A stretch of 60,860 bases of DNA from an uncultured Chitinophagaceae bacterium (lineage in GTDB: Bacteria > Bacteroidota > Bacteroidia > Chitinophagales > Chitinophagaceae): positions 1-60,860 of the forward strand of contig CALLZY010000198.1 in the NCBI GenBank assembly GCA_937858715.1, given 5' to 3'. The position numbers were made by a program, and so were the translations under genes. Of this stretch, positions 14,013 through 54,003 are shown piece by piece (within the stretch, counting starts at the first letter, position 1; each line of letters begins with the position of its first letter). The notes beneath the pieces were generated by a model. The model was not told the origin of the DNA, did no database searches, and saw nothing but the letters and a program-made list of their open reading frames with translations.

Positions 14013-14017
14013 TTACG

Positions 14018-14125: not shown

Positions 14126-14168
14126 TAACTTTAGTAACTACTAATTGAGAACCCCTAAACCTCAGATC

Positions 14169-15065: not shown

Positions 15066-15091
15066 TACCTGCTCAAGAATTAATACATATT

Positions 15092-15934: not shown

Positions 15935-15937
15935 TCT

Positions 15938-16405: not shown

Positions 16406-16423
16406 TTATGATATAATGAGGGC

Positions 16424-16957: not shown

Positions 16958-16965
16958 TTTGCAAT

Positions 16966-16991
16966 AATAATATCCAAATTGTCATATTATT
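16966..16991. promoter_or_regulatory. Inverted repeat before the Xre/RES operon, candidate operator
   Basis: AATAATAT (16966-16973) and ATATTATT (16984-16991) form a perfect 8-bp dyad with a 10-nt spacer, 8 bp upstream of the longer Xre start. It overlaps the stop codon of the upstream YkgJ-type gene. A self-binding site for Xre is inferred from position only. Confidence 0.4.
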
Positions 16992-37097: not shown

Positions 37098-37820
37098 ATG
37101 GGAAGAATTTTTGAAGTACGAAAAGCCTCTATGTTTGCCCGCTGGGACAAGATGGCTAAGAACTTTACCAGGATTGGTAAGGAAATTATCATAGCCGTAA
37201 AAGCCGGAGGACCAGATCCCGGAACTAACGCTGCTCTCCGCCGCTGCTTTCAAAATGCCCGGAGTGTGGGCATGCCGAAAGACCGGGTAGAAGCTGCTAT
37301 CAAGAGGGCTCAGGGCAAAGAGCTTGTAAACTATGACGAAATCCTGTACGAAGGTTATGGCCCACATGGTGTGGCAATTCTGGTAGAAACTGCAACAGAT
37401 AACCATGTAAGAACAGTGGCCAATGTAAAAAGCCATTTTAATAAAGGCGGTGGCACAATGGGAAACAGCGGAAGTGTTGCTTTTCAGTTTAAGAAAATGG
37501 GTGTATTTAAATTGAAACCCGAAGGACTGAATGCAGATGATATGGAGCTGGAACTTATTGACTTTGGCCTGGAAGAACTAGGTGAAGGAACCGGCGAAAA
37601 TGGCGAAGACATATTAGTAGTTCGATGTGGATTTACTGATTTCGGTCATATGCAAAAAGCATTAGAAGATAAAGGTATCACACCAATCAGTGCTGAGGTT
37701 GAATGGATTCCTTCCACAACCGTTCCTCTTTCCGATGCCCAGGCAGAAGATGTGAGCAAACTGATTGAAAGGCTGGAGCAGGATGATGATGTACAAAAGG
37801 TATTTCATAATATGGGATAA
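37098..37820 (+). CDS. yebC: YebC/PmpR (TACO1) family protein
   Basis: 240 residues, three-domain YebC fold. Typical wording: [29 protein letters not shown], then [82 protein letters not shown]. Members were described as transcription regulators and more recently as factors that help ribosomes through proline stretches; either role is family knowledge. Single gene between two terminators. Confidence 0.96.
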
Positions 37821-37832
37821 CGAATCCTCACA

Positions 37833-37870
37833 AATAGAAAAGCGGCTGAGTTTTCAGCCGCTTTTCTATT
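37833..37870 (+). terminator. Strong bidirectional terminator between yebC and the 38-53 kb cluster
   Basis: AATAGAAAAGCGGCTGA (37833-37849) and TCAGCCGCTTTTCTATT (37854-37870) form a perfect 17-bp stem with a GTTT loop. It can stop yebC transcription and also the long minus-strand cluster ending at 37900. Confidence 0.9.
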
Positions 37871-37899
37871 TTTATTTTTGGGCTTAAACGGTAACGATT

Positions 37900-39306
37900 T
37901 TACATTCCCAATGCAGTCTTAATCGCTGTAATATGCTGCGAAATATTCTGTGTACCATTAGGCACTCCGTTATTCATTACAAAAGGTGCGGCCCGTCTCA
38001 CCATATCTTTTGCGCCTACCCAATATAAATCAACCCAGTCTGCTGGTATCAGGTTTTCAAACAATGCCCTGAATTCACTTTGCGAATTAGACCTGTAGTA
38101 GCTAAAATAGTCCACTAAAGCAAGAGGAAACAAATATGGCATTTGCGACCTTGAAGATCTGGCAACGTCTGATAATGACAGGCCTGAGGGCAATGCCTCT
38201 GTACAAAAACTATTAATTAACTGTGCAAAGGGGCTGGTGCTTACGCCTTCTACTGTAGTATTGGTGTGACGAATAGCACTTATAAATTTTGAATAGCCAA
38301 TCGTTTGTGCATACATTGCTGCAATAAGGCCAATAATTCTCTCATTGTGCAATATGTGCTTTGCTGGCAATTCAGCTATCCTGAACACCTTATACCGGTT
38401 TGAAATATCTGCACCGTAATGTGATCTGGGAGGTGTCCTCCCTCTCAAGGGTGGATTTAAAGATGTTAGTATCGAATAAAGCCAAATGCTTGCTGATATA
38501 TGTGAAGGCCTGTTTGTTTCAATAAGACACTCACCATTCTCAGCAAACCAGGACATTGCTTCATTTCTTTCAGTAGCATAATACAAAAAAGAAAAGGCAT
38601 TTGCGATACCTTCCTGGTAAGTTGCTGTAACATTAGGTATCAGTTCTTCAAAATAATGAACTTCGTCATTGCCATAAGAAAAAGACCGGGAATGCCGTCT
38701 GGAGAACCAGATATGTTCCCTTCTGTCGCTGGCGTCCTGTGTATGCATCAGTTCATGCAAAAAAGTGGCACGGCTTGCCAGAACACCTGTCATTCTGAAA
38801 TATCTCTCCCCAATAGAAATGGTGCCAGCTGTGTCCCGGTTATCTCTTCCGTTATTATCCTGGAAATGAGTAGCACACGGCCACACATACCTGTTAGCTG
38901 CAGAACCAGAACCACAAAGGCCCCAATTTGTTTCTGCTGCTGATGTTATAGCCGCATTTATATCATTCACAACCTGAAAAACAACAATCTTATTATTTAT
39001 TCGCAATATGCTCGCCACATACTGTTGCAACCTTGATGAACCACCTTGGGAAACAGGTCTGAATAACACCCTCAGAAAACTTTGCATACTGTCCATGTTG
39101 GCAGAAGCAGACGGACCAAACAAGTTCCTGCTGCTGATAATGCTATCGGGCAAACGACGATACATTAAATTGCTGGTATTAGGATTAGGTGCATAATACA
39201 CATGCAGCTTTGCTACAATTAATTCCCTGTCCGTTTGAGAAAAAGCTGGCTTCTGTATAAAAAAAACAACAGGAAATAAAAACAGAAAAGTTTTGTACTT
39301 TCTCAT
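37900..39306 (-). CDS. Exported zinc-peptidase-like protein (HExxH), last gene of the cluster
   Basis: 468 residues with a signal peptide (VVFFIQKPAFSQ). H184-E-L-M-H188 in TFLHELMHTQD is a gluzincin-type zinc motif; E232 in YQEGIANAF, 44 residues later, is a plausible third ligand. No named peptidase family is recognised; the surroundings (NMDSMQSFLRVLF, LQQYVASILRINNK, VVNDINAAIT) are shared with the next gene, so both belong to one family. It probably acts in the periplasm or outside the cell. Twenty-five bp after its paralogue, so co-transcribed. Confidence 0.75.
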   Translation of the reverse strand: MRKYKTFLFLFPVVFFIQKPAFSQTDRELIVAKLHVYYAPNPNTSNLMYRRLPDSIISSRNLFGPSASANMDSMQSFLRVLFRPVSQGGSSRLQQYVASILRINNKIVVFQVVNDINAAITSAAETNWGLCGSGSAANRYVWPCATHFQDNNGRDNRDTAGTISIGERYFRMTGVLASRATFLHELMHTQDASDRREHIWFSRRHSRSFSYGNDEVHYFEELIPNVTATYQEGIANAFSFLYYATERNEAMSWFAENGECLIETNRPSHISASIWLYSILTSLNPPLRGRTPPRSHYGADISNRYKVFRIAELPAKHILHNERIIGLIAAMYAQTIGYSKFISAIRHTNTTVEGVSTSPFAQLINSFCTEALPSGLSLSDVARSSRSQMPYLFPLALVDYFSYYRSNSQSEFRALFENLIPADWVDLYWVGAKDMVRRAAPFVMNNGVPNGTQNISQHITAIKTALGM

Positions 39307-39331
39307 GTTATTACATTTAATGGTTAGGTTT

Positions 39332-40768
39332 TTATCTGGTTAACAGTTCCTTCAACTGGTTTCGTATGACAGGCCAGCCTGTTTCAAGTATGTTATTATG
39401 CTGCTTAATAGCCTCTACAGCGGCTCTGGTGTTACTATCATAAAGGTTGAATAATTCCTCGGGATAACCCCCGCCTATCAGGTTTGTGAATTCAGCATAA
39501 GTGAATGGGGCGCTACCAGTATAAAAAAAGTGCATAAATACCATCGGTGCGAGGTAAGCTTTATTGGCTGGCGGAGTTGTTGCTAACTGCGTAAGTGGTA
39601 TTCCCCCAATGTTTTCTCTTGTAAAATTTTCAAGGAACAAAGGCAGTTTTTGTGCAGCTTGTGCATTACAATAGCGATAGTTATCATAACTAACCGAACC
39701 AAGAAATGACCGGAGGTTTGATACCCAAAGACAAAAATGAAAAAGTAAACCCTGCATCATTTCATTACGGTATCTGTACATTTTTCTCACATCGCTGTTT
39801 CTCTCTGGTAATGAGAAATTCACCATTCCATACCTTCTTGCTGCCGATTCTGACATTAATGAATTGGGCGGTGTAACATACGAAGCTGGCAAGCCAATAA
39901 AAGGCCTTTGGTTGGGCAGCCAATTTAAGTTCAGTTCCCTTGATGCCCTTACAGGGATATTACGGGTCAGCATCATTACTGGTCTCTTTACCCAGTCGTT
40001 AAGGCCGGACTGGTAATCAAAATCGTAACTGGACAATAACCCGGTACAGATACCTTCATCTGTAACATACCGGTAATCCATAACAGCATTACCTGCATAA
40101 AAATCAATATCGGGGTATTCAGTCATTTTAAACGTATGCACACCCCCAACATGCAGGCTGCGGTAACTGCTGAGTTCAGCATAGATAAGCAGGCGTAAAA
40201 AAGTTTGCTTACACAGTTTCAGGTTTTGCCTGAGCAAAAACTCGCCTAACATAATGTTCCCTGCCTCTGCGACATCCATAACATTCCAAACAGAAGGCAT
40301 TACCCTCAGTTGTCCCCTTACCCGCACTGTATCAATTGCATTAAGGAGCAGCCCTTCGGTAGTTATCGGGCTGTTTACATCATTGACGAAATAAATATTA
40401 ATCCTTCTGCTTTTAACTTTCAGCAACTGGTACACCCAGTCCTGCAAATGGCCATCCCCACCATTATTCCTGTTCTTAAATAATGACGAAAGAAACCTGG
40501 CACAGGTATCCATACCATTGTTGCTGCGGGTACCGAAGATATAGCGGTCAACAGCCACTTCAACAAACTCCGGCGAAATAGTATTTATTGCTGAAATTGT
40601 ATTTGGGCTATTGATGTAATAAACATGGATATTCTGCTTCAGGTAAGTGAGTACTGTTGCAGGATCCACAGCCTGGGTTATACCTTGTTTGCAAGGAAAC
40701 AAGGCTATACTGCAAAAAAGGAAGCCGGCAAGCAGTCCTTTTTTATTGACATTTGATTGGCTGCTCAT
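39332..40768 (-). CDS. Exported paralogue of the zinc-peptidase-like protein, zinc motif lost
   Basis: 478 residues, N-terminal hydrophobic segment with signal-like end (QGITQA). It lines up with the gene downstream over most of its length (IHVYYINSPNT vs LHVYYAPNPNT; LQDWVYQLLKVKS vs LQQYVASILRINN; VNDVNSPIT vs VNDINAAIT). At the zinc site TFLHELMH becomes TFLRLLIY (R192, L193, Y196), while E238 in DEGICTG is kept. It cannot bind zinc in the same way and probably serves as a structural or substrate-binding partner. Confidence 0.72.
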   Translation of the reverse strand: MSSQSNVNKKGLLAGFLFCSIALFPCKQGITQAVDPATVLTYLKQNIHVYYINSPNTISAINTISPEFVEVAVDRYIFGTRSNNGMDTCARFLSSLFKNRNNGGDGHLQDWVYQLLKVKSRRINIYFVNDVNSPITTEGLLLNAIDTVRVRGQLRVMPSVWNVMDVAEAGNIMLGEFLLRQNLKLCKQTFLRLLIYAELSSYRSLHVGGVHTFKMTEYPDIDFYAGNAVMDYRYVTDEGICTGLLSSYDFDYQSGLNDWVKRPVMMLTRNIPVRASRELNLNWLPNQRPFIGLPASYVTPPNSLMSESAARRYGMVNFSLPERNSDVRKMYRYRNEMMQGLLFHFCLWVSNLRSFLGSVSYDNYRYCNAQAAQKLPLFLENFTRENIGGIPLTQLATTPPANKAYLAPMVFMHFFYTGSAPFTYAEFTNLIGGGYPEELFNLYDSNTRAAVEAIKQHNNILETGWPVIRNQLKELLTR

Positions 40769-40800
40769 AATAATATTCTTACGATAATATTAAACAGTAA

Positions 40801-42990
40801 TTATTGCGGTAACACATCTACATAAATATCATCCAAACTGGTTTTCTTTCTGCCCGACTTAATTGTCTGATTAGTTTTTGTCAGCCAGTCAATTTCATAT
40901 TCATATTCAGACTGCGATTTTGGCAAAATAAAATCTATCGGGGTGCTTAGTATTTGTTTTGAGACATTAAGGGTTGCCTGCTTAAACTGTTCCTCGCCTC
41001 CCTCAATTTTATAATAAACCCTTACCGTTGCACTCCTGATATTGTTCTTTGCCGCCTCATCAGCGTCAGCTATAACATTGATAGTCCTTCTTTTCACTGG
41101 TGCTTTAAGAGGTATTACCGGATTTACAGAAGATATCCAGTCACTTTCTACTGTAGCCCCGCCAAAAAAGTTCCAAACAGTTTTATATTCATAATTCAGC
41201 CATGTTTTACGGTCATTGTCGCCCGGCATCCATCCATACATCAATTTGAAATTATTCCCTTCTGCATTAAAGTTTTTACGGTCAACCCTCACTTCCGGTG
41301 TTGAAATATCTCCGCCGGGATGTTTTTTCCGCATACTAACTGTAACATAATTTACAAACTTGTCAAAGTCCTGTGATATTTCCCCGTCAATAAAACACAC
41401 CACTTCCCTCTGGGTGTATAACGGGCTGGCGAGGTTTACTTCCCTTATACAGTCCTTACAATTTATCTTCCCGATATTTCCACCAAAAACTTCTGTAAGT
41501 GATGTTGTAAAATAACTCTTTGCTTCGGCCACATATTTGCCACTGTGCTTTATAGTTTTCTTTTGATATGAAGCAACAATATTTATGTTTTGAAGACTTT
41601 CCTGCTGTTGTTGTACGGGCTGATAGTCAGGAATAGGCTCATTAGCAGGCCTGATATTTTGAGGGTTAGTTAATGCCGCCCTAGCGGCAGAATCCCTTTG
41701 CGGAGTGCGGGCAGTAGATACAGGCAACTCTTCTTCTGTTAATAAAGCAGATAAAGCTGATGATGTCCCTGTTGTATCACTTTCAGGATTTGCTATGCTG
41801 CCTGAACGGGAAATATCAGCAGCCCCTGAATTATTTCCTCCACCTGAAGAACCACCACTATTTGGCGAATTTGTATTCCCGGATGAATTCGGCTGGTTTA
41901 CACGGTTTTCCCTGTTACGCCTGTCGTCTTCCTCTCTTCTCCTTCTGTTCTCCTCATCAGCATATCTTCTTTCCTGCCTGTTTTCATCCCTTATTTGCCT
42001 GTTACTTTCTCTTTGGCGTTGCCTTTCATTATTTAATTGGTCTGTTGCCCTGTCGAGAAAACTGCGGCCACCGTTCAATGGTTGCGCAAGATCGCTCCAG
42101 TTGGGTGAGCCCTCTCTGCCAAAAGGTACAAAGCACATATCAATCATCTTGTTGGTAAGTACATCCTGCAAACGCTGAAGGTTAGGATCTTCACCTATCT
42201 GGGTTATTTTGATTGCTCCAGATTCTTTTAGTTCCTGCACAGCTACACCAATTTCGGCCTGTAGCACAGGTGTGGCAATTCCTGCATTGAAAATATCATG
42301 GTTATAAACTTTGTCCCAATCCATTTCAATTTTGAACTCGACCGGTGACTGGTACCCTGCAAGTGTCATATTCAGGTTGAATGAAATATCCGGTGTCGGA
42401 GTTTTTAAAGACTCCCAAAGCAGTGTTGCATCGTTCTTGTCAAGCAAAAAAGAAACAGCAATCTTATCGCCTTCCAGCACCGGAGCAGGGCCAATGCCCA
42501 ATACCCGTCTTTGGTTCTCTCCGCTGGCATTGTTTGCATTGGTAATTACGCTTTTTGTAATGAGTGCCATTGTCCCTCCTCGATAAACAACAGTTCCCAC
42601 AATTTTCCCTTTGGGGTTGACATTCTTTAGCTCCTGCTCAGCAGCTTTTATTTCATCGGGGCTTACACTTAACCCTATAAGCAAGTGAACATACCCGCCA
42701 CCATCTCCAACGGTAGCTGTCTTATCGGCATTTCCTGAACCAATGTTTTCCACAAAACGGATAAATGAAAACTGCTGCCGCCCATTCTCATCAACGCCCA
42801 ATCTCACTTTGTTTGGCAGATAATAATAGCTGTTGGGATCGTCAAGCAGGGGGAACACTTTTAGTGTACCTGCACTTACGGGTTTGTCCAATAATATACG
42901 CTGAACAAATTCCTTCTGGGCATTAGCCGCAGCCGAAATAAGTATTACCAATACAAACATCAGCCATCTGAATTTACTTTTCATGTGCAT
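40801..42990 (-). CDS. Cluster family protein A, exported, with long disordered Arg/Glu/Asn insert
   Basis: 729 residues with a signal peptide (ISAAANAQ). Shared family elements: YYYLPNKVRLGVDENGRQQF near residue 55, a repeat-like alpha/beta part (SPDEIKAAEQELKNVNPKGKIVG), GIGPAPVLEGDKIAVSFLLDKNDATLLWESL (165-195), CFIDGEISQDFDKFVNYVTVSMRKKHPGG (532-560) and TWLNYEYKTVWNFFGG (597-611). Residues about 318-460 are an insert of low complexity, first Arg/Glu/Asn-rich (NERQRQRESNRQIRDEN), then Ser/Gly/Asn-rich. Unknown function; no enzyme motif seen. It is the only member with such an insert. MHMK start may equally be the second Met. Confidence 0.72.
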   Translation of the reverse strand: MHMKSKFRWLMFVLVILISAAANAQKEFVQRILLDKPVSAGTLKVFPLLDDPNSYYYLPNKVRLGVDENGRQQFSFIRFVENIGSGNADKTATVGDGGGYVHLLIGLSVSPDEIKAAEQELKNVNPKGKIVGTVVYRGGTMALITKSVITNANNASGENQRRVLGIGPAPVLEGDKIAVSFLLDKNDATLLWESLKTPTPDISFNLNMTLAGYQSPVEFKIEMDWDKVYNHDIFNAGIATPVLQAEIGVAVQELKESGAIKITQIGEDPNLQRLQDVLTNKMIDMCFVPFGREGSPNWSDLAQPLNGGRSFLDRATDQLNNERQRQRESNRQIRDENRQERRYADEENRRRREEDDRRNRENRVNQPNSSGNTNSPNSGGSSGGGNNSGAADISRSGSIANPESDTTGTSSALSALLTEEELPVSTARTPQRDSAARAALTNPQNIRPANEPIPDYQPVQQQQESLQNINIVASYQKKTIKHSGKYVAEAKSYFTTSLTEVFGGNIGKINCKDCIREVNLASPLYTQREVVCFIDGEISQDFDKFVNYVTVSMRKKHPGGDISTPEVRVDRKNFNAEGNNFKLMYGWMPGDNDRKTWLNYEYKTVWNFFGGATVESDWISSVNPVIPLKAPVKRRTINVIADADEAAKNNIRSATVRVYYKIEGGEEQFKQATLNVSKQILSTPIDFILPKSQSEYEYEIDWLTKTNQTIKSGRKKTSLDDIYVDVLPQ

Positions 42991-43028
42991 GTTTTTAATT
43001 TTAGAAATTGGTCACATGTTACTCGCAA

Positions 43029-43071
43029 TAAAATTTTCATCGTCGGCTGTTATTTTAGCCCGAAAATTTTA
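43029..43071. repeat. Two-part inverted repeat in the largest internal gap of the cluster
   Basis: TAAAATTTTC (43029-43038) and GAAAATTTTA (43062-43071) are complementary, and GGCT/AGCC inside them form an inner stem. The element lies in the 127-bp gap between two family genes. Poor T-run on the minus strand makes it a weak terminator at best; it could mark partial termination or an RNA end. Confidence 0.4.
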
Positions 43072-43117
43072 CAGCTCATTTCATAAACTATAATGTTGGT
43101 TAGTTAATTATTCAAAA

Positions 43118-45079
43118 TCAGTTTTTAATTGCACCTAAAATATCTTTAAAGCCATCCAGCACTTTATCAGCAGTTACTTTGCCATCAGGACCCGGGGTTA
43201 TAATATTTTTGGCAACTTCAACGGCTTTTGTAAAAACAGCAGACGTTTTATCCTTAAGCTCCTCGGGAATAACTGCGAACTCATAACTTTCTGTACCACT
43301 TCCGCTTACTTTAGGGCTCCAGTCAAGTGCCAGTTTGCCTTCTGTTTTATGATAGAAAATCATGCGGTAGGCATATCCCCTTACATCCCTGTCAATGAAT
43401 ATTGTTTTACTGGCAATAGCCTCGTTTTTTGCAGGCGATATACTTATATTCTCCTCTACTTCTTCTCCCAGTTTACTGTATCTGACCTGCATAACAGCCC
43501 TGCTGATATTGAGTTCTTTCAGCTTGTCAATATCTGCTTCAAATTCAATTTTATGAGCTTGTACCGGGAGTTTTAACTCGTTGCCCTGCATCTGTCCTAC
43601 CTGCCATTGAGGCTCTTTGGGATACAACAAACCACCACGAAGGCTCCATTGTGTCTTGTACTGAAACATTTCCGGGTTTCTGTCGTCTCCGGCGGCATAT
43701 GATAGTGTTTTCCTGTTTCCTTTACTTTGTAAATCGTCTTTATTCAGCACAAAGGAATTTGTAAAATCGTTACCCGAGGTCCTTCTCTTTCTGACATTAA
43801 CCGTTACATAATTCACCTCGCCCTTTTCAAACATGCTTACAGCATCGTTATCAACAAGAAACTGGATGTCCATGTGTTTATAAAAAGGATCGTTCAGGTT
43901 TACTGTAGCCACACATTTTTCATTGTCCCTTGCGGCATTGTAGAATGTTTTGAGGTTTTGCGTAACCGAAAGCTCCATAGGCAACAGGAAATTGTAGCTT
44001 AAATCAAACACCTCTTTCTTTTTTACTACTGACTGCTCAAACTTTTTAATATTTAGATAATAGCCGTAAGCATTGCTTTTTCCAGGCAGGTTTTGCTGCT
44101 CAGCCTGCGAAGGTGGTGCAGCATTCGGCTGGTCTGTTGACGGTGTAGTAAACTTATCCATAAAAAACTGGAAGAACATTTCGATTAGTTTTTTGGACAG
44201 TTCATTAGGCATCCCTTCGTCCAACTGTACATTTATTGCATTTTTCTCTGTTAGCTTAGAATAGAACTTATGCATTTCATCCCAGGTCTGGCTTTCTCTT
44301 ACTGAGTTTTTTGTTTCTTTTCTGTAATATCTTGCACTTATACTGTCCTGCTTAAAAATCTGGGAGATTTTCTCGTAGTCAACAGTAATACGGCCTTTTA
44401 CCCCGTTTACTTTCAGATAATATTTATAAAACAGGTTAACACTGAGATCAGTAATTGATTTTGAGTTTTCAAAGGTTGCTGCCATCAGTTGTGCTCCATA
44501 TTTATTCAGGTTGGTTGCCACAGCCACTTTTCCGCCCTGGTATAAGGGTGCCTTGCCAGATGTGACAATACTTTTTGCGAGTCCGCTTTCCTTGTTAACA
44601 ACTGCAGAAGTTATTGTAAAAGTATTAGCATCCCCGGCCGCAAATAAATCAACTGGCCCTTTAACCTTAGCACCACTTACCCTTGCATTCAGCTTCGCCT
44701 GCAGTTCCGCCAGTTGTCCCGGTGTATAACCTGTCTGCATCAAAAAGTGCATCAGTGCACCTGTTACACCTCCCTGGTCTTCCCTTTCTTCGGTGATATA
44801 CTTCAGAAATAAAAACTCAGGCACCTGTGAAACAGGATCTTTTGAAAGCATTACCTGAGTGGGCAGATAGAAATAATTGAGTGATGGCTTTGCATTCCAT
44901 GTGTCTCCCTGCAATTGTGCATATAAAGTAATAATGGTGCCATCGCCCAATGCGATTGTTTCCTTTGAATTGTAGTCCAGGTTTTGTGCCTGTATCCTTA
45001 TAAACGATAAAAGGATGAAAAGTACCGGCACCAGTTTCTTACTAAGAACTAATCCTGAACGGTTAATAATTGTTTTCAT
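43118..45079 (-). CDS. Cluster family protein B, exported
   Basis: 653 residues with a signal peptide (LSFIRIQAQ). Family elements: NYFYLPTQVMLSKD (near 68), TPGQLAELQAKLNARVSGAKVKGPVDLF, SIVTSGKAPLYQGGKVAVATNLNKYGAQLM (169-199), CVATVNLNDPFYKHMDIQFLVDN, EVNYVTVNVRKRRTSG (421-436) and MFQYKTQWSLRGG (471-483). The VDG motif of the other members reads VDND here. C-terminal 40 residues add a helical tail (VFTKAVEVAKNIITPGPDG). Function unknown. Downstream of the papain-like gene by 34 bp. Confidence 0.72.
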   Translation of the reverse strand: MKTIINRSGLVLSKKLVPVLFILLSFIRIQAQNLDYNSKETIALGDGTIITLYAQLQGDTWNAKPSLNYFYLPTQVMLSKDPVSQVPEFLFLKYITEEREDQGGVTGALMHFLMQTGYTPGQLAELQAKLNARVSGAKVKGPVDLFAAGDANTFTITSAVVNKESGLAKSIVTSGKAPLYQGGKVAVATNLNKYGAQLMAATFENSKSITDLSVNLFYKYYLKVNGVKGRITVDYEKISQIFKQDSISARYYRKETKNSVRESQTWDEMHKFYSKLTEKNAINVQLDEGMPNELSKKLIEMFFQFFMDKFTTPSTDQPNAAPPSQAEQQNLPGKSNAYGYYLNIKKFEQSVVKKKEVFDLSYNFLLPMELSVTQNLKTFYNAARDNEKCVATVNLNDPFYKHMDIQFLVDNDAVSMFEKGEVNYVTVNVRKRRTSGNDFTNSFVLNKDDLQSKGNRKTLSYAAGDDRNPEMFQYKTQWSLRGGLLYPKEPQWQVGQMQGNELKLPVQAHKIEFEADIDKLKELNISRAVMQVRYSKLGEEVEENISISPAKNEAIASKTIFIDRDVRGYAYRMIFYHKTEGKLALDWSPKVSGSGTESYEFAVIPEELKDKTSAVFTKAVEVAKNIITPGPDGKVTADKVLDGFKDILGAIKN

Positions 45080-45113
45080 GTTTTGCTGTTTAATGCTGTA
45101 TTGGTGTTATAAA

Positions 45114-45824
45114 TTATTTGCGGTGAAAAATTTTGTAAAATACCCTTTGTCCGAGAAAAGTACCATTTGCCTTATTGCCAGCATCCTTCACAACAACTAT
45201 CCCGGGCAAAGATTTCAACTTCCTGTACAATTTATTTGGTGTTGTGCTCCAGCCCAACCCTACAAATTCACTGCTTTTGAGCGGCATATTTAAAAATTGC
45301 TCAAGGGAAAGGCGTATAAAATCGGTACAGTTAAATTTTCTTGCATTAAAAATCCTATTTGAAGCAGCAAGGCTGTCCAGTATTTTATTCAGCCAAAAGT
45401 TCTGTTGCCATGATACGCTTATTTTCAATATCCCGTCAGCCGGATAGTACTCCTTATGCGGGATGCCCTGATAATATAGCTTATTAAGAGTAATTTTTTC
45501 TTGCGATGCAACTGGAAGTTTGTAATACACTGCCGGAATATCTCTGCCCGTATTTGTAATACTGAAATAATCCTCATCAGGCCACAGATCGTAATAGGTA
45601 AGTTCTGAGCTGGCCACAGTATCAAACGATGCCAGACTATTCTCATTATTTTCTTTCACCCAAACAGAATAATTATCCATCGCAATGCCCATATGCCCGG
45701 TTTTGCCTTTACAGGTTGCATAATAAACTACATAAACAGAAGATTGTGAAACAGCAGGCAAGGCTACCACAATGATTGCTATTGCTGTAACAATATTTAG
45801 TATTATCGCTTTTCTGTTTATCAT
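45114..45824 (-). CDS. Exported permuted papain-like (NlpC/P60 or LRAT-like) candidate enzyme
   Basis: 236 residues with a signal peptide (VVALPAVSQ). H44 in GKTGHMGIAMDNY precedes C166 in KFNCTDFIRLSLEQFLN; His-before-Cys with a C-T-D-F helix start is the order of circularly permuted papain-fold enzymes (YiiX/LRAT-like), which hydrolyse or transfer acyl or peptide bonds. This assignment rests on those two motifs only. Sits inside the cluster: its start overlaps the stop of the upstream family gene by 4 bp, so both are translated together. Confidence 0.6.
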   Translation of the reverse strand: MINRKAIILNIVTAIAIIVVALPAVSQSSVYVVYYATCKGKTGHMGIAMDNYSVWVKENNENSLASFDTVASSELTYYDLWPDEDYFSITNTGRDIPAVYYKLPVASQEKITLNKLYYQGIPHKEYYPADGILKISVSWQQNFWLNKILDSLAASNRIFNARKFNCTDFIRLSLEQFLNMPLKSSEFVGLGWSTTPNKLYRKLKSLPGIVVVKDAGNKANGTFLGQRVFYKIFHRK

Positions 45825-47581
45825 TTAGCGGGTATTACATCTATAAACAGCAGTTCATTATCGTTTTTTCCTGTGGCAACTTTCTCGGTATTGTCCTTCA
45901 ACCGCCACCGGATTGTATAGTCATACTCATATTGTCCGGCCGGAAGTGTGATGTCAAAATATTTTTGCGACAGGTCATCATCAGGTTTGACAGTAAAATC
46001 AAGGGTTTTAATTTCACCAAGAAAAGGATAAGAAATCCGTACAGATACAGCCCTGACATTCGCCGATCTGAGAATATCTTTGTCAGCCTCTACCTTTATC
46101 ATTTTTCTTGAATAGGGCACAAAGAGGTTTATCATAGAATTATTCTGCTGTTTCCAATCTGTTTGAAAAGTTTTACCTCCAAGAAAATTGTACTGTGCCC
46201 GGTATTCGTAATTCAGCCATTCTTCACGGTCCATATCGCCAACAGAACCATAATTCATCATTAAGTTCCTGTTCTCTGCTACCGTTGATTTCAGAATCGT
46301 CACTTCCCGCATAGTCTGGCTGCCATTTTGGTGTTTCTTCTTCAAAGTAACCGTTATACTGTTAATCATTTTATCGAACTCAGGCACCAGTTGACCATCT
46401 ACCGATACATACACCTGCCTCATCTCAAACTCGGGATTGTATAAAGACACTGTCCTGAAATACTTTTCATCACTTCCAAATTTTTTATAGAAGTCTCCAA
46501 TATTAAAAGTTATATAATGGTGCCTGTCAGTAGCTGTACGACTGTTAAAATTGAGCACACTGAATCCCGATAGCTTTACATCTTTTCTTTTGTATCCGAA
46601 ATGCGCCCCAAAACCAAATGTCCTGCCACTTGATGCAGCACCATTTCCGCTATTACCAATTAATCCACCAAGCAAAGAACTTAATCCGCTTTGTTCTGCC
46701 GGGGGCAGTTGTTCAGGTTCTGCCCTGCGGAACATCATATCAGTAACTTTTGAATACGCTTCATCCACTATCTGCTGCATTTTATCATCCTGTCCTGTGG
46801 TTTCCAGTTTTATAGCGCTGGTCCTCCGTAACTCTTCATAAATCTTTTCAAGTTCGGCACTTACAAAATATACATTTGCCCCGCCTGAAATTTTTTCGTT
46901 CTTCTGCACTTCTGCCCAGTCAACCGTCATCTTTGCATTATATGCATCCATTATTCCAGAAAAAGTCATATCGAAAACTATTGACACATCCGGTGTTGCT
47001 GTTTTAAAACTTTCAAATAACAGCGTTGACCTTTCCGGATCCAGTTCGAACGACAGTGCTATCCTGCTGCCCTGCAAAACAGGTGCGGCACCTATAGCCA
47101 TCAGCTTTTTCTCTGAATTACCTGTTTCGGGGTTAATAACTGAAGATACCAGTGCATAGCGTCCTTCTTTAAATACTACAGGTCCCTTCAGTTTTACTTC
47201 ATCGTTATTCAGCAATTCCTTCAATCTTTCCTGCGCCTTCTTTATTTTGCTTTCATCTGTATCATACAACACAAGAAAATGCAACACACCGCCGCCCCCG
47301 GCTTTTACAATTGAACTGCCATCACCATTAGCTGATGTGGCCGGTGTAACATATCTTATAAAAGAAAATTGTGGCTGCTTTTTATCATCAACTGCCAGCA
47401 TCGAACGATCGGGCAAATACAAATACTGCAATGTATCAGTGATTAACGGGAAGCACCATAAACCCTCCACCCTTACACCCCTGTCAATAGCTATCTGCTG
47501 TGCTTCCAGTTTTTGGTGAGAAAAACTCAGAAGCAGGAAAAAAAACAGCAAGAAGAATATTTTCTTTCTCCGGATTCTCAT
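45821..47581 (-). CDS. Cluster family protein C, exported
   Basis: 586 residues with a basic, hydrophobic signal peptide (FSHQKLEAQ). Same layout as proteins A and D: YLYLPDRSMLAVDDKKQPQF (near 53), GGGGVLHFLVLYDTDESKIKK, GAAPVLQGSRIALSFELD (164-181), YFRTVSLYNPEFEMRQVYVS, VDGQLVPEFDKMINSITVTL (394-413) and DREEWLNYEYRAQYNFLGG (451-469). The final 100 residues are beta-rich (LPAGQYEYDYTIRWRLKDNT). It is the most compact member and best represents the common core. No catalytic motif is evident. 4 bp after protein D, overlapping the papain-like gene. Confidence 0.74.
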   Translation of the reverse strand: MRIRRKKIFFLLFFFLLLSFSHQKLEAQQIAIDRGVRVEGLWCFPLITDTLQYLYLPDRSMLAVDDKKQPQFSFIRYVTPATSANGDGSSIVKAGGGGVLHFLVLYDTDESKIKKAQERLKELLNNDEVKLKGPVVFKEGRYALVSSVINPETGNSEKKLMAIGAAPVLQGSRIALSFELDPERSTLLFESFKTATPDVSIVFDMTFSGIMDAYNAKMTVDWAEVQKNEKISGGANVYFVSAELEKIYEELRRTSAIKLETTGQDDKMQQIVDEAYSKVTDMMFRRAEPEQLPPAEQSGLSSLLGGLIGNSGNGAASSGRTFGFGAHFGYKRKDVKLSGFSVLNFNSRTATDRHHYITFNIGDFYKKFGSDEKYFRTVSLYNPEFEMRQVYVSVDGQLVPEFDKMINSITVTLKKKHQNGSQTMREVTILKSTVAENRNLMMNYGSVGDMDREEWLNYEYRAQYNFLGGKTFQTDWKQQNNSMINLFVPYSRKMIKVEADKDILRSANVRAVSVRISYPFLGEIKTLDFTVKPDDDLSQKYFDITLPAGQYEYDYTIRWRLKDNTEKVATGKNDNELLFIDVIPAK

Positions 47582-47585
47582 TCAA

Positions 47586-49481
47586 CTATTTTTTAAACTT
47601 TTCCTGGGCTGGCGGAGCCAGAAAAAGGTATGATGAACCAAGTACGCCCATGTCTGATTTTGCCTCCCCTTTATACCGGCTGTACCATGTTGCCTGATGC
47701 ACTACCGGCTGGTTGGTATCGTGGTATAATGTAATCTTACTTGTCGAGGATGCATCACCTGCCCTGAGTATTACACTCTTTACCACTTTTTTTTGTCCGG
47801 CAAGCACGGATGCAAAATTTATATTTACTGACGAGATGCTATCTGTACGGAACTGCTCCCTGTCTCCGTCCAGTTCTATAAACTCCTTAACAAGCGGAGG
47901 CGTTAATGAAACTGCAGGGTCTGATGATTTTATCCATTCCTTGGCATCAGCCGGATAACGGACTGCTTCCTGTTTCCCTTTAAAACTCCACAGAACCTGG
48001 TATTCATAATTAAGCCATTCCGCTGTGGTTAGACCAAGGCGGGGATACATGATATCCTTAAAACTCACCCCTTTCTTCAGGTCTTCACCATTAATAATTA
48101 CCTGGCCGGTTACATCATCCTGTCCGTTTGAATATCTCTTCCGGAAGTTTACAGTTACAAAATTTATTATTTCGTCAAATGCATCAGTAAATTTCCCGTC
48201 AACCTGAAAACTGACAGAACGTTTCTGAAAATCCGGATCATCCATATTTACAATACGGAAATATCTCTCGTCTTCGCCCAACATGGAATAAAGGCCGCCG
48301 AGGTTTCCTGCGGTATGAAATGGCACTTTTATCGTTGTAGCCTTGCTTAAATTAAGATAAAACTTGTTAGTCCTTATATTTTGTATATCCTTTAGCACAT
48401 ACTGGTTATCGGTAATGTACTCTGGATTTGTATTCTTCTTTTTCTTTGGAGAGAACCATCCTAAAATCGGCAGGGAACCCATGATGTCACACATAGCATC
48501 ACCCACATCGCTAATCACCTGCCCGGCTTCTGTTTTATCACCCTGTCTTCCACGGGGATCGAAACCAAGGTTAGGATCTACTGTTTCAGGTTCTTTAGAC
48601 CAGCCGGTTTTCGTATCAAACATTATTTCGGTAAGCTTATTCGTTACAAGGTTCAGAATACCATCCATGTCACTTGTTTTAATACCCAGCCCGGCCGACC
48701 TGTCAAACACATCCACTTTTATCCCGCCTTTCTTAGATAAATCATCTACCACCTTACGGATTTGTGTTTTATTATATCCCTCCTGGCTGGCAATCATTTG
48801 ACTGAAGTGGCTGTATATCACATTCATCTCTGCGGTTACAACCGCATTATATGCTTTTACTGCCGCTTCATAATATCCATGTACAGATACTGATACATCT
48901 GAATTGGGTCCGGTAAAAGAATTCCATAGAATGGTGGCGCCATTTTGGTTGAGCAGTGATGCCACAGCAGCTTTTGAACCTGGTGTAAGCGGGGCAAAAC
49001 CGGATGTAACAACAGAACGGGCCATTGCGTCTTTGCCGTCCTTATTACTTAATACAGCGGAGACGATATCAAAACTTGGCGTAACGTTTTCGGGATCGTC
49101 TTTCTTGGGCTGCATCAATGGAACAGGGCCGGCGATCCTTGCACCCGGCACCTTCTTCTGTAATTCTTTTGTAAGCCGCATCAGCAGCGAATCCGGTATA
49201 TCAAATGTTACCAGTGCATGAAACAGACCACCGGAATTCTCTGCCCTGTCGCCTACATATTTCAGGCACAGGAATTCAAAGGAACCATCCTCCTTGGTTG
49301 ATAACCTGGGAAACTGAGGCAGGTAATAATAATCTTTTTCATTAGCCCTGTCCTGCAATAATGTAACACCAGAAATATACATAGCACCTTCATCATATTT
49401 TACCTGGGCACTCATGCAAACAGAACCTGCAATAAACAACAGGCATAAAGTCATTTTTCTTGAAATGTGTTTCATCAGCAT
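47586..49481 (-). CDS. Cluster family protein D, exported
   Basis: 631 residues with a signal peptide (GSVCMSAQ). Core motifs: KDYYYLPQFPRLSTKEDGSF (near 50), GGLFHALVTFDIPDSLLMRL, VTSGFAPLTPGSKAAVASLL (159-178), GATILWNSF, DERYFRIVNMDDPDFQKRSV, FQVDGKFTDAFDEIINFVTV (425-444) and EWLNYEYQVLWSFKG (488-502). A KKKKN stretch near 347 follows a hydrophobic segment (SLPILGWF). Unknown function. MLMK start may equally be the third codon. 26 bp downstream of protein E. Confidence 0.73.
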   Translation of the reverse strand: MLMKHISRKMTLCLLFIAGSVCMSAQVKYDEGAMYISGVTLLQDRANEKDYYYLPQFPRLSTKEDGSFEFLCLKYVGDRAENSGGLFHALVTFDIPDSLLMRLTKELQKKVPGARIAGPVPLMQPKKDDPENVTPSFDIVSAVLSNKDGKDAMARSVVTSGFAPLTPGSKAAVASLLNQNGATILWNSFTGPNSDVSVSVHGYYEAAVKAYNAVVTAEMNVIYSHFSQMIASQEGYNKTQIRKVVDDLSKKGGIKVDVFDRSAGLGIKTSDMDGILNLVTNKLTEIMFDTKTGWSKEPETVDPNLGFDPRGRQGDKTEAGQVISDVGDAMCDIMGSLPILGWFSPKKKKNTNPEYITDNQYVLKDIQNIRTNKFYLNLSKATTIKVPFHTAGNLGGLYSMLGEDERYFRIVNMDDPDFQKRSVSFQVDGKFTDAFDEIINFVTVNFRKRYSNGQDDVTGQVIINGEDLKKGVSFKDIMYPRLGLTTAEWLNYEYQVLWSFKGKQEAVRYPADAKEWIKSSDPAVSLTPPLVKEFIELDGDREQFRTDSISSVNINFASVLAGQKKVVKSVILRAGDASSTSKITLYHDTNQPVVHQATWYSRYKGEAKSDMGVLGSSYLFLAPPAQEKFKK

Positions 49482-49507
49482 TTATTTTATTTTACACTTT
49501 TTCTTAC

Positions 49508-50701
49508 TTACTCTCCTTCTTCAGGTTTTCCTTTTCTTACTGTCTTTTCCGGAGGAGAGGTAATATCAATCAGTTCAGTCCAGCTTTCTCTTTTTATCCA
49601 TTCAGAACTTGTTGCTTCACCATCATTATTTATTTCTGTTGTGCGGTAATAAAAAGGCCTGTCGAACCGCACTGCATATTTAAATCTGATATTTCTTGCA
49701 AATAGTTCCGGCTTTGCTTGTAAAAAAGTAAACGACGATTCAATATCCGCCCCGGAAACACTGCGAGCCTTTACCTCAATTTTCTTTGCAAATAAATCAT
49801 CTCTAAGTCCATTATTGAAATCGTAGCAATACACCGTAAATACAGGAAATTTTGCAGGAAGATTCTCATTAATGTCTATTTTTTCAACTACGGAAGGCCA
49901 TTTTGCCACATCTGCCTTCAGCGGGATTGCGTCAGCCTTTATCAGGATTATATTTGAGTCTCCTTTATTTTCATCGCTGAGCATCCTGCGAATTTCGTTT
50001 TTCAGTTCCCCGCCGGCATTGGTATTTATACTGCTGTTCGCCGAATCAGAAAACAATGAATAAAAAGCATAACCAAAACTGAGTATCACTTTGTCCTCAT
50101 TTAATGCTGCAGCCACTGCTTGTGCGTCCATATCATTCAACCTGAATGTTACGACCCTTTCATTCCAGTAGCTGTTATTTATTTCGGCATTTTCATCTGT
50201 GGCTTCTGCGTAACCGCTGTTTTTTATTACAGAAAGGCTGTCTATGCCGGAAGAACTTCCTGTACCGGAGAAAACGAGTATTGAAGAAAATTTTCGCACC
50301 GGTAATATTCGCAGTTGCGAGCCAGGCATTTCCTTTTTTACCGCTTGCTGGAGGGAGTACAATTTTTTCTGATATGCAGTATCTATACCAATTCTGAATT
50401 GAAAGATGTTATTAGTCCGAACCAGGCCATTATCCCCGGCAGCTACCGTTCCGGTATAGCGCATTTGCAAGAGAGATAATGATGGTTTACCATCACCGCC
50501 GTTCATCAACTGATAATCAGGTGGCTGGTAATACCAAAGATTTGGTATCCGGCTATCCTTATACAATTTCTGACCGACAACAGTTACTGACGAAGCCAGC
50601 TGCGGCTGCGCCGAAACTTCTCTTATCAAAAGGGAAGCAAGTACAATTAAGAGAATTATATGATAAGCCACTTTCAGCATTGAGTCTAACAGTTTATTCA
50701 A
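49508..50701 (-). CDS. Cluster protein E, short divergent member, exported
   Basis: 397 residues with a signal peptide (LLIREVSAQ). It keeps the outline but not the exact words: NLWYYQPPDYQLMNGGDG (N-terminal strand), YQKKLYSLQQAVKKEMPGSQ, VTFRLNDMDAQAVAAALNED and VFTVYCYDFNNGLRDDLFAKKIEVKARSVSG, then YAVRFDRPFYYRTTE. The middle third of the family proteins is missing. Its start overlaps the stop of protein F by 8 bp; a second Met (50680) with an equally good signal peptide would avoid the overlap. Membership of the family is an inference. Confidence 0.62.
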   Translation of the reverse strand: MNKLLDSMLKVAYHIILLIVLASLLIREVSAQPQLASSVTVVGQKLYKDSRIPNLWYYQPPDYQLMNGGDGKPSLSLLQMRYTGTVAAGDNGLVRTNNIFQFRIGIDTAYQKKLYSLQQAVKKEMPGSQLRILPVRKFSSILVFSGTGSSSGIDSLSVIKNSGYAEATDENAEINNSYWNERVVTFRLNDMDAQAVAAALNEDKVILSFGYAFYSLFSDSANSSINTNAGGELKNEIRRMLSDENKGDSNIILIKADAIPLKADVAKWPSVVEKIDINENLPAKFPVFTVYCYDFNNGLRDDLFAKKIEVKARSVSGADIESSFTFLQAKPELFARNIRFKYAVRFDRPFYYRTTEINNDGEATSSEWIKRESWTELIDITSPPEKTVRKGKPEEGE

Positions 50702-53081
50702 TACCAGGTATTATGCCTTTGAACAGTTCTTTCAGTTTTGTTTTCCCAAGTAAAACATCCTTTTCTGTGGCAGGTATCCAGTCCCGGACAGGATAGAAGT
50801 CTCCATCGGCAGATGCCACAGTAATTTTGTACTCAAATTCAATTGCTCCATTTGCGGGAATAAACAGCGGGCCTGCAGAATTACTCCCTGTTCCCTCTTT
50901 AGTTATTTTAATCGCTTCAAATTCCTTAAGTTCTGTTCCCTTAGGATCGCCCTGTTTACTACGGACTGTAATTAGAAAATAACTGGCACGAAGTGTATCG
51001 AAAACAGCAGGTGGAATTGTAAACTTAACCTGTTGGTTTTTTGTTCCTGCCACTCCACCCGTTACAGCATCAAGTACCTTCAGGTCACAACTGTTACATT
51101 CTTCAACAGAATATTCAACCCACATTACCACCGATGGGTCTGTATCTATCCAAACGGGTATGCGGCTGTTTTCAAATTCTGCCTGCGCCTGTGAAGGCAC
51201 AATAGCATCATTCAGCGACCAGGAATAAATAATAGGTTTGGTGCCATTAATTTCCTTTTTAAGCACATGTATATACTTTAGCCGCAAAGGGTATGGTGTG
51301 AGGTTCCTCCATTTTTGACTGCGCCAGTTGGCCGGGTTAAGGTTCATTTTCCCCAATGTCCTTATATCGGCAAGGTTAATAGTCGCCGGAATTTGCTGAT
51401 CGAGAATAGACTCATCGGCAGGTTTAAGGATTACCGAAGCACTGATGCCCTCACGGGAAGTAAGTGATGACTGGATAAAATCCTTGGTTGTTACATCTGT
51501 TTGCCATGCCACTTTTATATCGCTGTTAAGATCAGTATAGCTTTCTACTTTTATTTTCCCTTCAGGAATGTTGAACTGTGAACCAAGTGTGCTTTGAAAT
51601 GTAAACTGTGGGTTTTCACGAAGAGGCAGGTACCGTATATCAACAAAATCGGGCCTTACTGACTTGAGCAGTTCTTTTACAAAATTTCTTTCCCTTGAAC
51701 TGATTCCGGTTGTAAGCGAAGCCGACATTCTTACAGGTGCATCAGAGTCTGTTTCCTCTCCACCGTTTGTTTGAGTGCCATATAAAATCCTGAAATCGTA
51801 TCCCTTCTCAGGTTCGGTCCTGGTTTCCCACTTAAGGTGAAAATCTGCAGGAAGTATGTAATAAATACCAGAGGTTATATTCTTGTCTGCAAAAACACTG
51901 ATATTAATATTAGAAATATCCTGCGGCCTTCTAAAATCAACATCGGCACTCAAGCCGTCAAGCAGGTACAACTGCAGGTTTTTGTCAGGCCCCCTTGGAG
52001 TTTTATCAGCCGTACCTCCTGAAGGGGGGGGCATCTTCGCTATATCTTTCATTGTATAAATCTGGGTAGCGGCAAATACAATTTTTATGTCTTTCTTGAA
52101 AGTATATGAGTAGTTTCTGGCGGGACGCCCATCTTTATACACATCAGCACCGTTTAATACAAGTTCTGCACCGTTAAGCGAAAGATTAAATGTTGTATTT
52201 CTGAAGCTGGTTGTATATAAAGCTTTATAGTTATTGCCACCCGATGAGGCAAGAGATGCTTTTCCCCAGTCACAGTCCTGCGGGTGACAACGTCCAAATG
52301 CCTGTATCGAATTGTCGTTAACAATTATCAGCTTGGTGATGCCTTGGGTATTTTGATCGATATTAACCCATGTGCCAGAGATACTTTCCTGTGCTGCCGC
52401 TGCATAATTAAAGTTGCGGAAACTGTTACCGCCACCCGGTACAATACCAGGTTTTATGTTCCTTATTACATCTGGTCTGATATATGTTTTTGAAGGGTCA
52501 AAATAAATCGTTTTAGCAGGTGTAATATCCTTTTTTTCATTTGTAAGATTAGCCGCCTTACCTACAGGAACAAGAGGAACATTTATTACTATGTTTTTTA
52601 CATCAAGATTCGTTTTCCATTTTTTGTTCAATTGAAAAACAGAGACATTACCCGTTCCTCCTTGTTTTTTTGAAACATCAATGCGTAAAAAGACTGACGC
52701 ATACTCACTATTATCAGGCAACCCGGATTTTAAATCAATTGAAAATTCAGCAGGAGATGCAGACTGCGTAAACTGGGCTTTAGACATTTCAGCCTGCACT
52801 TTCCTGTCTGCAGCCAAACAGGAAACAGTGAAATAACCTCCGGAGTACTCTTTATAATAAATCTTTCCCTTCAGATTTTTTTCAGCATCATAAGAGATAA
52901 CAACACTGTCAACATTACCGGGAATTTTTCCACCAAGAAGAATACCTATTCCTGACTCAATCATTGAACTTATATCATCTGATTTAATCAGTTTTTTATT
53001 TTGTAACCCGCTTATGTTTTGTGAGTTTAATGCCTGAATAAAAAACAGGGAAATGGCTAAGAAGGCGATTCTTAATAACAT
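50694..53081 (-). CDS. Cluster protein F, exported, with lipocalin-like domain; first gene of the operon
   Basis: 795 residues with a signal peptide (FFIQALNSQ). Residues about 235-330 form a small beta-barrel-like domain (SGTWVNIDQNTQGITKLIIV, GRCHPQDCDWGKAS, NYKALYTTSF), a pattern I recall from other secreted bacterial proteins. A Pro/Gly linker (MPPPSGGTADK) follows, coded partly by eight C in a row. Residues about 365-570 resemble the family N-half (GIYYILPADFHLKWET; ERNFVKELLKSVRPDFVDI; SQFNIPEGKIKVESYTD), then a beta-rich C-terminus with C-N-S-C. Function unknown. A weak -7 box lies about 50 nt upstream. Confidence 0.65.
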   Translation of the reverse strand: MLLRIAFLAISLFFIQALNSQNISGLQNKKLIKSDDISSMIESGIGILLGGKIPGNVDSVVISYDAEKNLKGKIYYKEYSGGYFTVSCLAADRKVQAEMSKAQFTQSASPAEFSIDLKSGLPDNSEYASVFLRIDVSKKQGGTGNVSVFQLNKKWKTNLDVKNIVINVPLVPVGKAANLTNEKKDITPAKTIYFDPSKTYIRPDVIRNIKPGIVPGGGNSFRNFNYAAAAQESISGTWVNIDQNTQGITKLIIVNDNSIQAFGRCHPQDCDWGKASLASSGGNNYKALYTTSFRNTTFNLSLNGAELVLNGADVYKDGRPARNYSYTFKKDIKIVFAATQIYTMKDIAKMPPPSGGTADKTPRGPDKNLQLYLLDGLSADVDFRRPQDISNINISVFADKNITSGIYYILPADFHLKWETRTEPEKGYDFRILYGTQTNGGEETDSDAPVRMSASLTTGISSRERNFVKELLKSVRPDFVDIRYLPLRENPQFTFQSTLGSQFNIPEGKIKVESYTDLNSDIKVAWQTDVTTKDFIQSSLTSREGISASVILKPADESILDQQIPATINLADIRTLGKMNLNPANWRSQKWRNLTPYPLRLKYIHVLKKEINGTKPIIYSWSLNDAIVPSQAQAEFENSRIPVWIDTDPSVVMWVEYSVEECNSCDLKVLDAVTGGVAGTKNQQVKFTIPPAVFDTLRASYFLITVRSKQGDPKGTELKEFEAIKITKEGTGSNSAGPLFIPANGAIEFEYKITVASADGDFYPVRDWIPATEKDVLLGKTKLKELFKGIIPGIE
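52024..52031 (-). repeat. Eight-base homopolymer tract in protein F
   Basis: Plus strand has eight G (C on the coding strand), encoding P351-P353 of the linker. Slippage by one base would shift the frame and remove the C-terminal 440 residues. Confidence 0.7.
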
Positions 53082-53610: not shown

Positions 53611-54003
53611 ATGCAAGCGGTATTACTATTTGACGGTGTCTGTAATTTTTGCAACAGTATGGTGAATTTTGCCATCCGAAACGACAAGAAGGCCAAACTT
53701 AAATTCTGTCCGCTCCAATCTGAATATGGGCAAATGCTGAAAATAAAACATGGACTATCTCCTGATGCCGACACTATCGTTTTTATTGAAAATGATACGG
53801 CATATACTTATGCTAAAGCAGCCATCCGTGTATGTAAATACCTTGACTGGCCTGCAAAAATGCTTTATGGGTTTATCATAGTACCATCATTCATCAGCCA
53901 GCCTTTATATAAATGGTTTGCCCGGCACAGATACAAATGGTTTGGCAAAAAAGACACTTGCATGATTCCTTCGCCTGAAGTAAAAAACAGATTCCTTTTG
54001 TAA
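53611..54003 (+). CDS. DCC-family thiol-disulfide oxidoreductase (DUF393)
   Basis: 130 residues. LLFDGVCNFCNSMVNF carries the name-giving D8-G-V-C11-N-F-C14 motif of a thioredoxin-like CxxC; KFCPLQSEYG and WFARHRYKWFGKKDTC complete the family pattern. Predicted thiol redox protein of the cytosol or membrane surface; partner unknown. No purine-rich ribosome site. Its stop abuts the stop of the convergent PhzF gene with no spacer. Confidence 0.9.
   Translation: MQAVLLFDGVCNFCNSMVNFAIRNDKKAKLKFCPLQSEYGQMLKIKHGLSPDADTIVFIENDTAYTYAKAAIRVCKYLDWPAKMLYGFIIVPSFISQPLYKWFARHRYKWFGKKDTCMIPSPEVKNRFLL

Follow-up and report, generated by a model that had tools for sequence, protein, structure and literature searches.

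The logic of placing a changing enzyme beside a constant part is already known from conflict systems, including the EAD/STAND-NTPase systems in the available parts of two accounts (Kaur et al. 2020, PMC7159879; Kaur et al. 2021, PMC8195603). Here we analysed 60,860 nucleotides from an uncultured Chitinophagaceae bacterium (contig CALLZY010000198.1 of assembly GCA_937858715.1; this whole stretch is called the window). It carries a nine-gene run that encodes a family of paralogous proteins, A to F, together with the enzyme-like proteins pap, h1 and h2. The preliminary description had suggested a surface or periplasmic assembly or processing machine; since we found that the enzyme slot varies from genome to genome, the reading shifted to an assembly that carries an interchangeable hydrolase. 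We propose, giving this an even chance, a dedicated and horizontally moving operon for an exported hetero-oligomeric assembly that would hold or gate such a hydrolase.

The nine open reading frames (ORFs) lie in one run on the minus strand, from 53081 to 37900, and in the order F/E/D/C/pap/B/A/h1/h2 their junctions measure -8, 26, 4, -4, 34, 127, 32 and 25 bp, which confirms the run with the gaps and overlaps first described. No terminator-like hairpin was listed by our scan in the 127-bp gap between B and A. E starts with TTG within its 8 bp overlap with F, and an alternative ATG lies seven codons further in. A simple hydropathy rule gives an N-terminal hydrophobic leader on all nine proteins, which supports the export proposed earlier.

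A to D are paralogues, with best blastp E-values between 1e-14 and 1e-49 for the six pairs and phmmer E-values between 1e-25 and 3e-92. The family is defined here by the YxYLP and GxAP motifs, an N-terminal domain and a C-terminal beta half, and A to D qualify as members. The longer list of shared motifs in the preliminary description describes A, C and D more closely than B, which has VDN...FE in place of VDG...FD and lacks WLNYEY; in the alignment, A has IDG at this place. E and F had been regarded as divergent members. For E this holds over the N-terminal domain, which matches a profile of C, A and D (hhalign 99.2%, E 9e-20), and for F it holds in part: one stretch matches E (hhalign 94%, E 1e-7) and the similarity to the C-terminus of A to D, measured against C/A/D, is weak (hhalign 39%, E 3e-4). 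F also contains an inserted stretch, SGTW...CHPxDCDWG, from residue 235, which is common to F of three other loci (L011, L023 and L027) and missing from most other F proteins. Proteins of about 190 amino acids adjoin the operon in two loci (L018:3964-4539 and L020:21677-22249); they match the F profile at about positions 51-184, as if F were split. Their match is to the N-terminal part of F, which rules them out as copies of the insert. The residues invariant across 73 C/A/D proteins (G, G, P, L, R, K) do not resemble an active site and point to a structural or binding role.

The order of the genes is conserved far beyond the window. In a pattern-based scan with one genome per species we found at least 27 loci, and in all 21 loci outside the window that have all four genes, D-C-B-A are arranged on one strand. 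The hosts belong to several Bacteroidota families, Candidatus Eisenbacteria, an Armatimonadetes bin and Nitrotoga, and one 3-kb contig comes from a Burkholderiales bin. Culturable carriers include Neolewinella aurantiaca and strains of Lacihabitans and Emticicia. Linkage across genera, proposed earlier as the test for a system, was thus observed. The opposite outcome named there, members standing singly, did occur: some distant relatives (L052-L056) and the second A copies in L033 and L034 are of this kind. Two further loci are truncated by contig ends (L012 with C-B-A, L025 with D-C), and A occurs without D-C-B in L033, L034, L035 and L037, of which L035 (also with h2) and L037 start at a contig end. 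The F-E pair either precedes D or follows A/h; seven loci have a duplicate of A and four a duplicate of B; and a short extra member (ORFs of 221-244 amino acids) follows C in 14 of the 21 loci and is missing from the window. In a Segetibacter bin B is split into two ORFs (L011:10741-12663). The lone A copy of the Eisenbacteria bin (L034:7714-9600) lies beside a VWA7_N/PLAT protein with a weak Het-C match.

The family is rare. Among genomes from the same taxonomic family as the window it was found in three of 117, one being the window's own and one having a distant single copy, and D was found in none of 37 other close relatives. Eight of 395 Bacteroidota genomes were positive, again including the window's own; the other seven matches are distant or weak and one of them (G189) is probably due to chance. 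In the phylum of Nitrotoga the count was 4/398 with Nitrotoga itself and two weak matches, and in the phylum of the Eisenbacteria bin 5/47 with two already known. At most 2-3 candidates were scored per genome in the two large genome surveys.

A FastTree phylogeny of 103 proteins recovered A (31 proteins), B (26) and D (23) as exact clades with support of 0.97-1.0, and C (23) as a clade minus one row, that of Nitrotoga. The tree checks the labels A to D separately, as these had been assigned according to which window protein each sequence matched best. The subunits were thus duplicated before the operon spread. The identity matrices of A to D (20 outside loci and the window; L011 with its split B was omitted) correlate with coefficients of 0.77-0.94, and for each of the six pairs none of 2000 permutations was as high. 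The presence of all four types in every full operon is the pattern that subunits of one complex would leave. In a tree of D and C together, the window and five Bacteroidota loci fall into a 10-row set with Eisenbacteria, Armatimonadetes and Nitrotoga, while 12 other Bacteroidota loci stand apart. We do not claim transfer between phyla, because this tree has a midpoint root, a single Bacteroidota origin appears in 22% of the bootstrap trees, and bins may hold foreign contigs.

While the paralogues stay constant, the hydrolase encoded with them changes its family. We counted a gene as hydrolase-like if it has a peptidase family match, an HExxH motif or is pap, and lies within the run. Such a gene is present in 17 of the 21 outside loci, or in 14 of 21 if pap is not counted, both as raw counts; pap itself is present in 10 of 21. 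An astacin-C70 fusion is found in L015 (with blastp cluster mates, not themselves scanned, in L016, L017 and L019), a C70/C39 protein in L023 (with a blastp cluster mate in L027) and an M43 protease in L014, and h proteins with HExxH occur in L011, L013, L020, L028, L029, L030 and L036. Among chosen rows of leader-bearing operons, 19 of 20 slot proteins have a leader; the exception is h2 of L029 with the start as used. Downstream of the operon, the Nitrotoga locus encodes a tyrosinase and two large proteins with weak matches of the cytochrome type (L032:7920-15059), in place of a recognised protease. An nSTAND1 NTPase and a WG-repeat protein are encoded co-directionally 246 bp upstream of the D ORF in L014 (3310-7836) and might act as regulator and sensor.

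The enzymes of the window themselves appear to be dedicated to the operon. In 13 carrier genomes, all seven pap matches and all ten h matches (E up to 0.001) lie within it. All 11 aligned pap proteins share H44, N165, C166 and D168. For the permuted papain-like enzyme recognised earlier, the motif order therefore stands; a fold match did not follow, as the best PDB hit of the pap model (pLDDT 85.2) is CLN5, which is not significant (E 0.15, probability 0.54, TM 0.31). We take CLN5 to be a papain-like cysteine thioesterase and regard the match as a hint only. The two h proteins are paralogous (blastp 4e-16) and had been described as an HExxH pair. That is correct for h2, which has HELMH and a downstream Glu (QEGIAN) and is a candidate HExxH...E zinc protease; h1 lacks HExxH, keeps the downstream Glu only and is probably a pseudoenzyme. 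The HExxH motif is retained in nine of 12 aligned h proteins. Pfam gave a single match for these 12, a sub-threshold SprT-like one, which corresponds to a second, C-terminal HELGH region in h2 of Aquimarina spongiae (L036:14178-16367).

Searches of curated libraries agree with the earlier statement that no family is recognised. None of the nine proteins had a credible match in Pfam or NCBIfam, and the same holds in Pfam for larger sets of 73 C/A/D, 11 pap and 15 F proteins. PADLOC 2.0.0 likewise gave the nine no credible match (best E 0.007), and a known antiphage system was rejected on this ground. Searches of PDB sequences with C alone and with profiles of C/A/D, pap, F and h also returned nothing credible. 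Type IX secretion system (T9SS) cargo was ruled out by the lack of a C-terminal sorting-domain match in the nine proteins with NCBIfam, which we assume to include models for this domain. The structure of C was predicted by AlphaFold2 (pLDDT 86.9, pTM 0.65) with an alpha/beta half at about residues 30-310 and an all-beta half at about 330-580. Partial Foldseek matches with a probability of 1.00 were obtained to 5cag, a Medusavirus protein and a Siphoviridae protein, with rmsd values of 10-18 Å; matches to complement, alpha-2-macroglobulin, adhesins and phage FN3 proteins were dismissed as generic beta-sandwiches (TM-score by query no higher than 0.21 among the matches listed). In the accessible parts of the literature no description of the paralogue family was found, preprints, UniProt and InterPro being outside the search.

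Distant relatives of the family that lack a leader are accompanied by enzymes of another kind. Three members stand with two caspases in L051, and on a Paracoccus plasmid (L058) five members stand with trypsin-EAD1, EAD1, a STAND-like ATPase and PLD. In L103, called leaderless from the protein starts only, the companion is a protease like NARROW LEAF 1 (E 1e-69). L056 has a caspase with a peptidoglycan-binding domain nearby, and L054 a C1 papain and an N-acetylmuramidase, likewise nearby. In one genome (G108) the sole caspase gene is about 3 kb from the sole family member, and in another (G220) the family locus accounts for two of the three caspases; this comparison was chosen after the caspases had been seen. 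Among chosen rows, five of six companions of leaderless members have no leader either, so that enzyme and family mostly match in this respect as well. Two leaderless Pseudomonadota loci (L103:2926-19499 and L050:2320-19384) share further genes, for example one for a protein of 536-588 amino acids, and look like a second, related operon type. The caspase, trypsin-EAD1 and STAND-like companions, together with the STAND and WG-repeat proteins of L014 and the VWA7/weak Het-C protein of L034, make us lean towards conflict or cell death. A conflict purpose is thus weakly favoured, and exported feeding or processing roles are possible beside it.

The operon lies between yebC and a gene for a DCC-type oxidoreductase (Table 1; both names are presumed). 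In a genome of the same genus (G546) these two genes are 31 bp apart between the same neighbours as in the window, presumably APC permeases on one side and phzF and a dehydrogenase gene on the other; because the flanking genes adjoin there, the site is empty. Among six stretches fetched from other genomes, the two genes are adjacent in G547 and G549 and separated by other genes in G529 and G537; the DCC gene was not found in the fetched stretch of G545. In two genomes of the same genus the site instead holds a gene for an exported-looking protein of 574-579 amino acids (L087:4492-6231 and L088:7889-9613). This protein has a papain-like-looking region, GGLCGG ... HVVL, without a Pfam peptidase match, and a ricin-type lectin domain, which Pfam reports for the L088 copy. 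The impression is of a hotspot at which exported genes settle. A tRNA as insertion site was ruled out, as none was found in the window, and so was a phage or prophage origin: exact peptide patterns found no relative of C in viral contigs, and a distant member was unmatched in phage records. The hairpin between h2 and yebC is the strongest terminator-like one in the scan and is probably a two-way terminator. Outside the operon, in the left part of the window, the GC content falls to about 0.36 at about 14000-17000.

Table 1. Genes of the operon and flanking features in the window (aa, amino acids)
Feature	Coordinates	Strand	Description
F	50694..53081	-	795 aa, exported, heads the run; middle and C-terminal parts akin to E and to the C-terminus of A-D
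E	49508..50701	-	397 aa, short divergent member (N-terminal domain)
D	47586..49481	-	631 aa, subunit type D of the family
C	45821..47581	-	586 aa, subunit type C of the family
pap	45114..45824	-	236 aa, exported; permuted papain-like motif order GKTGH44 ... FNC166xDF
B	43118..45079	-	653 aa, subunit type B of the family
A	40801..42990	-	729 aa, subunit type A; charged low-complexity insert at about residues 310-470
h1	39332..40768	-	478 aa, exported h2 paralogue without HExxH
h2	37900..39306	-	468 aa, exported candidate zinc protease, HELMH ... QEGIAN
hairpin	37832..37871	.	18 pairs with an A head and a T tail, located where h2 and yebC converge
yebC	37098..37820	+	left edge of the insertion site; outside the system
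DCC-type oxidoreductase gene	53611..54003	+	right edge of the insertion site; outside the system

The simplest mechanism that we can suggest for these genes is the following. The operon would encode one copy each of the anciently diverged subunits A, B, C and D and the divergent E and F, all exported, and A to F would form a single hetero-oligomeric complex, either periplasmic or extracellular. The catalytic cargo would come from the same operon, namely pap (a protease, amidase, thioesterase or acyltransferase) and h2 as HExxH zinc protease; h1, presumably inactive, could act as a regulator. In this view the paralogues would be the constant part and the hydrolase the interchangeable one, replaced or joined elsewhere by astacin-C70, C70/C39 or M43 proteases; in the leaderless distant versions caspases, trypsin-EAD1 or a serine protease like that of L103 might take this place. 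By holding, positioning or gating the hydrolase, the assembly may restrict its action to a bound target or trigger.

Several observations weigh against this interpretation. Some runs do not offer a suitable enzyme: the h proteins of L018 have no HExxH, the L024 contig stops 66 bp past A, the one downstream gene scanned in L031 has CARDB repeats and no recognised peptidase, and no recognised peptidase accompanies the tyrosinase in the run of L032. Among the leaderless loci, no recognised hydrolase was found in the 8-gene run of L050 on a Pararhizobium plasmid, and no peptidase in the one downstream gene of L105 that was compared with PDB sequences. The later loci are few and mixed, with a protease in the run of L103 and L106, none in L105 and L104 cut by its contig, a tally that leaves out L107 and L108. 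Proteases are common among exported proteins of Bacteroidota, and the hydrolase pattern was spotted after the neighbours had been seen. The leader calls were made by a hydropathy rule for selected rows, and it does assign a leader to two proteins encoded at leaderless loci, one of 304 amino acids in L050 and, just over the line, the muramidase in L054. As the pap model has no significant fold match, its enzyme class rests on the motif. The check by structure prediction and Foldseek proposed earlier, carried out on C and pap, gave no convincing fold match for C, with a TM-score by query of at most 0.21 among the top 50 matches per list, and no significant PDB match for pap. As to mobility, the GC content of the island (0.410) matches that of the flanks (0.418 and 0.417), and composition was rejected as evidence of a recent transfer. 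The Segetibacter operon is likewise next to yebC and the permease, at the same site, which may reflect a shared insertion, a hotspot or a common ancestor with losses since. The GC content and the Segetibacter site also fit vertical inheritance with losses. Horizontal movement is therefore only inferred, since the composition matches the flanks and the shared site has several accounts.

The most serious alternative, although we consider it unlikely, is that A to F are subunits of a surface layer or fibre which the co-encoded enzymes mature. Many paralogous exported subunits in a fixed order, two enzyme-like genes in the run of the window and the predicted all-beta C-terminal half of C all fit such an envelope processing or appendage system. 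A maturation protease should however be conserved, and here its family changes while the subunits stay; leaderless versions are also odd for a surface fibre. Furthermore, no credible pilin or fimbrial Pfam match was found in the 73 C/A/D proteins, the F proteins giving a tip-pilin Ig match at chance level (E 0.12). It is less probable still that the operon is a machine for extracellular degradation and feeding, in which the hydrolase digests a polymer captured by A to F. Such a role fits the Bacteroidota hosts and the variety of exported hydrolase classes, and proteins rich in beta-sandwiches often bind polymers, but there is no TonB receptor among the scanned genes of the runs and no carbohydrate-active Pfam match for the nine proteins, and the caspase, trypsin-EAD1 and STAND-like companions of the relatives do not fit. 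That A to F are inhibitors or chaperones of the co-encoded enzyme, giving self-immunity, rather than a scaffold would agree with the mostly matching compartments of hydrolase and family and with the varying protease families, but is the least probable of the three, as four subunit types kept through changes of the protease family are more than an inhibitor needs.

We thus retain the assembly with an interchangeable hydrolase. A bolder version of it is tentative and less likely than not: a new class of mobile heteromeric systems of four conserved paralogous subunits plus E/F, with exported and leaderless forms, loaded with the hydrolase of the respective lineage (papain-like, metalloprotease, caspase, trypsin or serine protease). 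Such a system would serve in the envelope or cytosol as a proteolytic weapon under gating, or for self-destruction. The core order is kept across distant Bacteroidota and also in Candidatus Eisenbacteria, the Armatimonadetes bin and Nitrotoga, and leaderless cousins are found on alphaproteobacterial plasmids and in other genomes. A single complex of these subunits that gates a hydrolase would be a new molecular machine, and the swapping of enzymes across genomes is a natural experiment that makes the gating idea directly testable. In addition, our analysis supplies family definitions for proteins which are now labelled hypothetical.

Parts of the locus resemble several known proteins and systems. 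In permuted papain-like enzymes of the LRAT/YiiX kind the His precedes the Asn-Cys; pap likewise has its His before the Cys, with an N-C-x-D-F motif, but differs in having no credible Pfam match (11 proteins), PDB sequence match or significant fold match. NARROW LEAF 1, which we take to be a serine protease, has a bacterial relative in the leaderless operon L103. Structures of NARROW LEAF 1 are available (PDB 7y77, 8hau, 8pme); the protein is a companion in this one distant relative and absent from the window. Polymorphic toxin systems (PMC3482391, in the part available) also combine a constant part with an exchangeable enzyme, but here a separate gene is exchanged instead of a C-terminal domain, many paralogous subunits are present, and no immunity gene was recognised. 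From the EAD/STAND systems the window differs in that its nine proteins are exported and have no EAD, NTPase, caspase or trypsin domain match in Pfam or NCBIfam; EAD or NTPase domains occur only in relatives, namely in L058 and, as the STAND NTPase upstream of D, in L014. The paralogue family was not found in the available parts of the EAD/STAND accounts (PMC7159879, PMC8195603). What the two have in common is that distant leaderless relatives of the family lie beside trypsin-EAD1, EAD1 and a STAND-like NTPase (L058) or beside caspases (L051, L056), and that changing effector enzymes stand beside a constant part.

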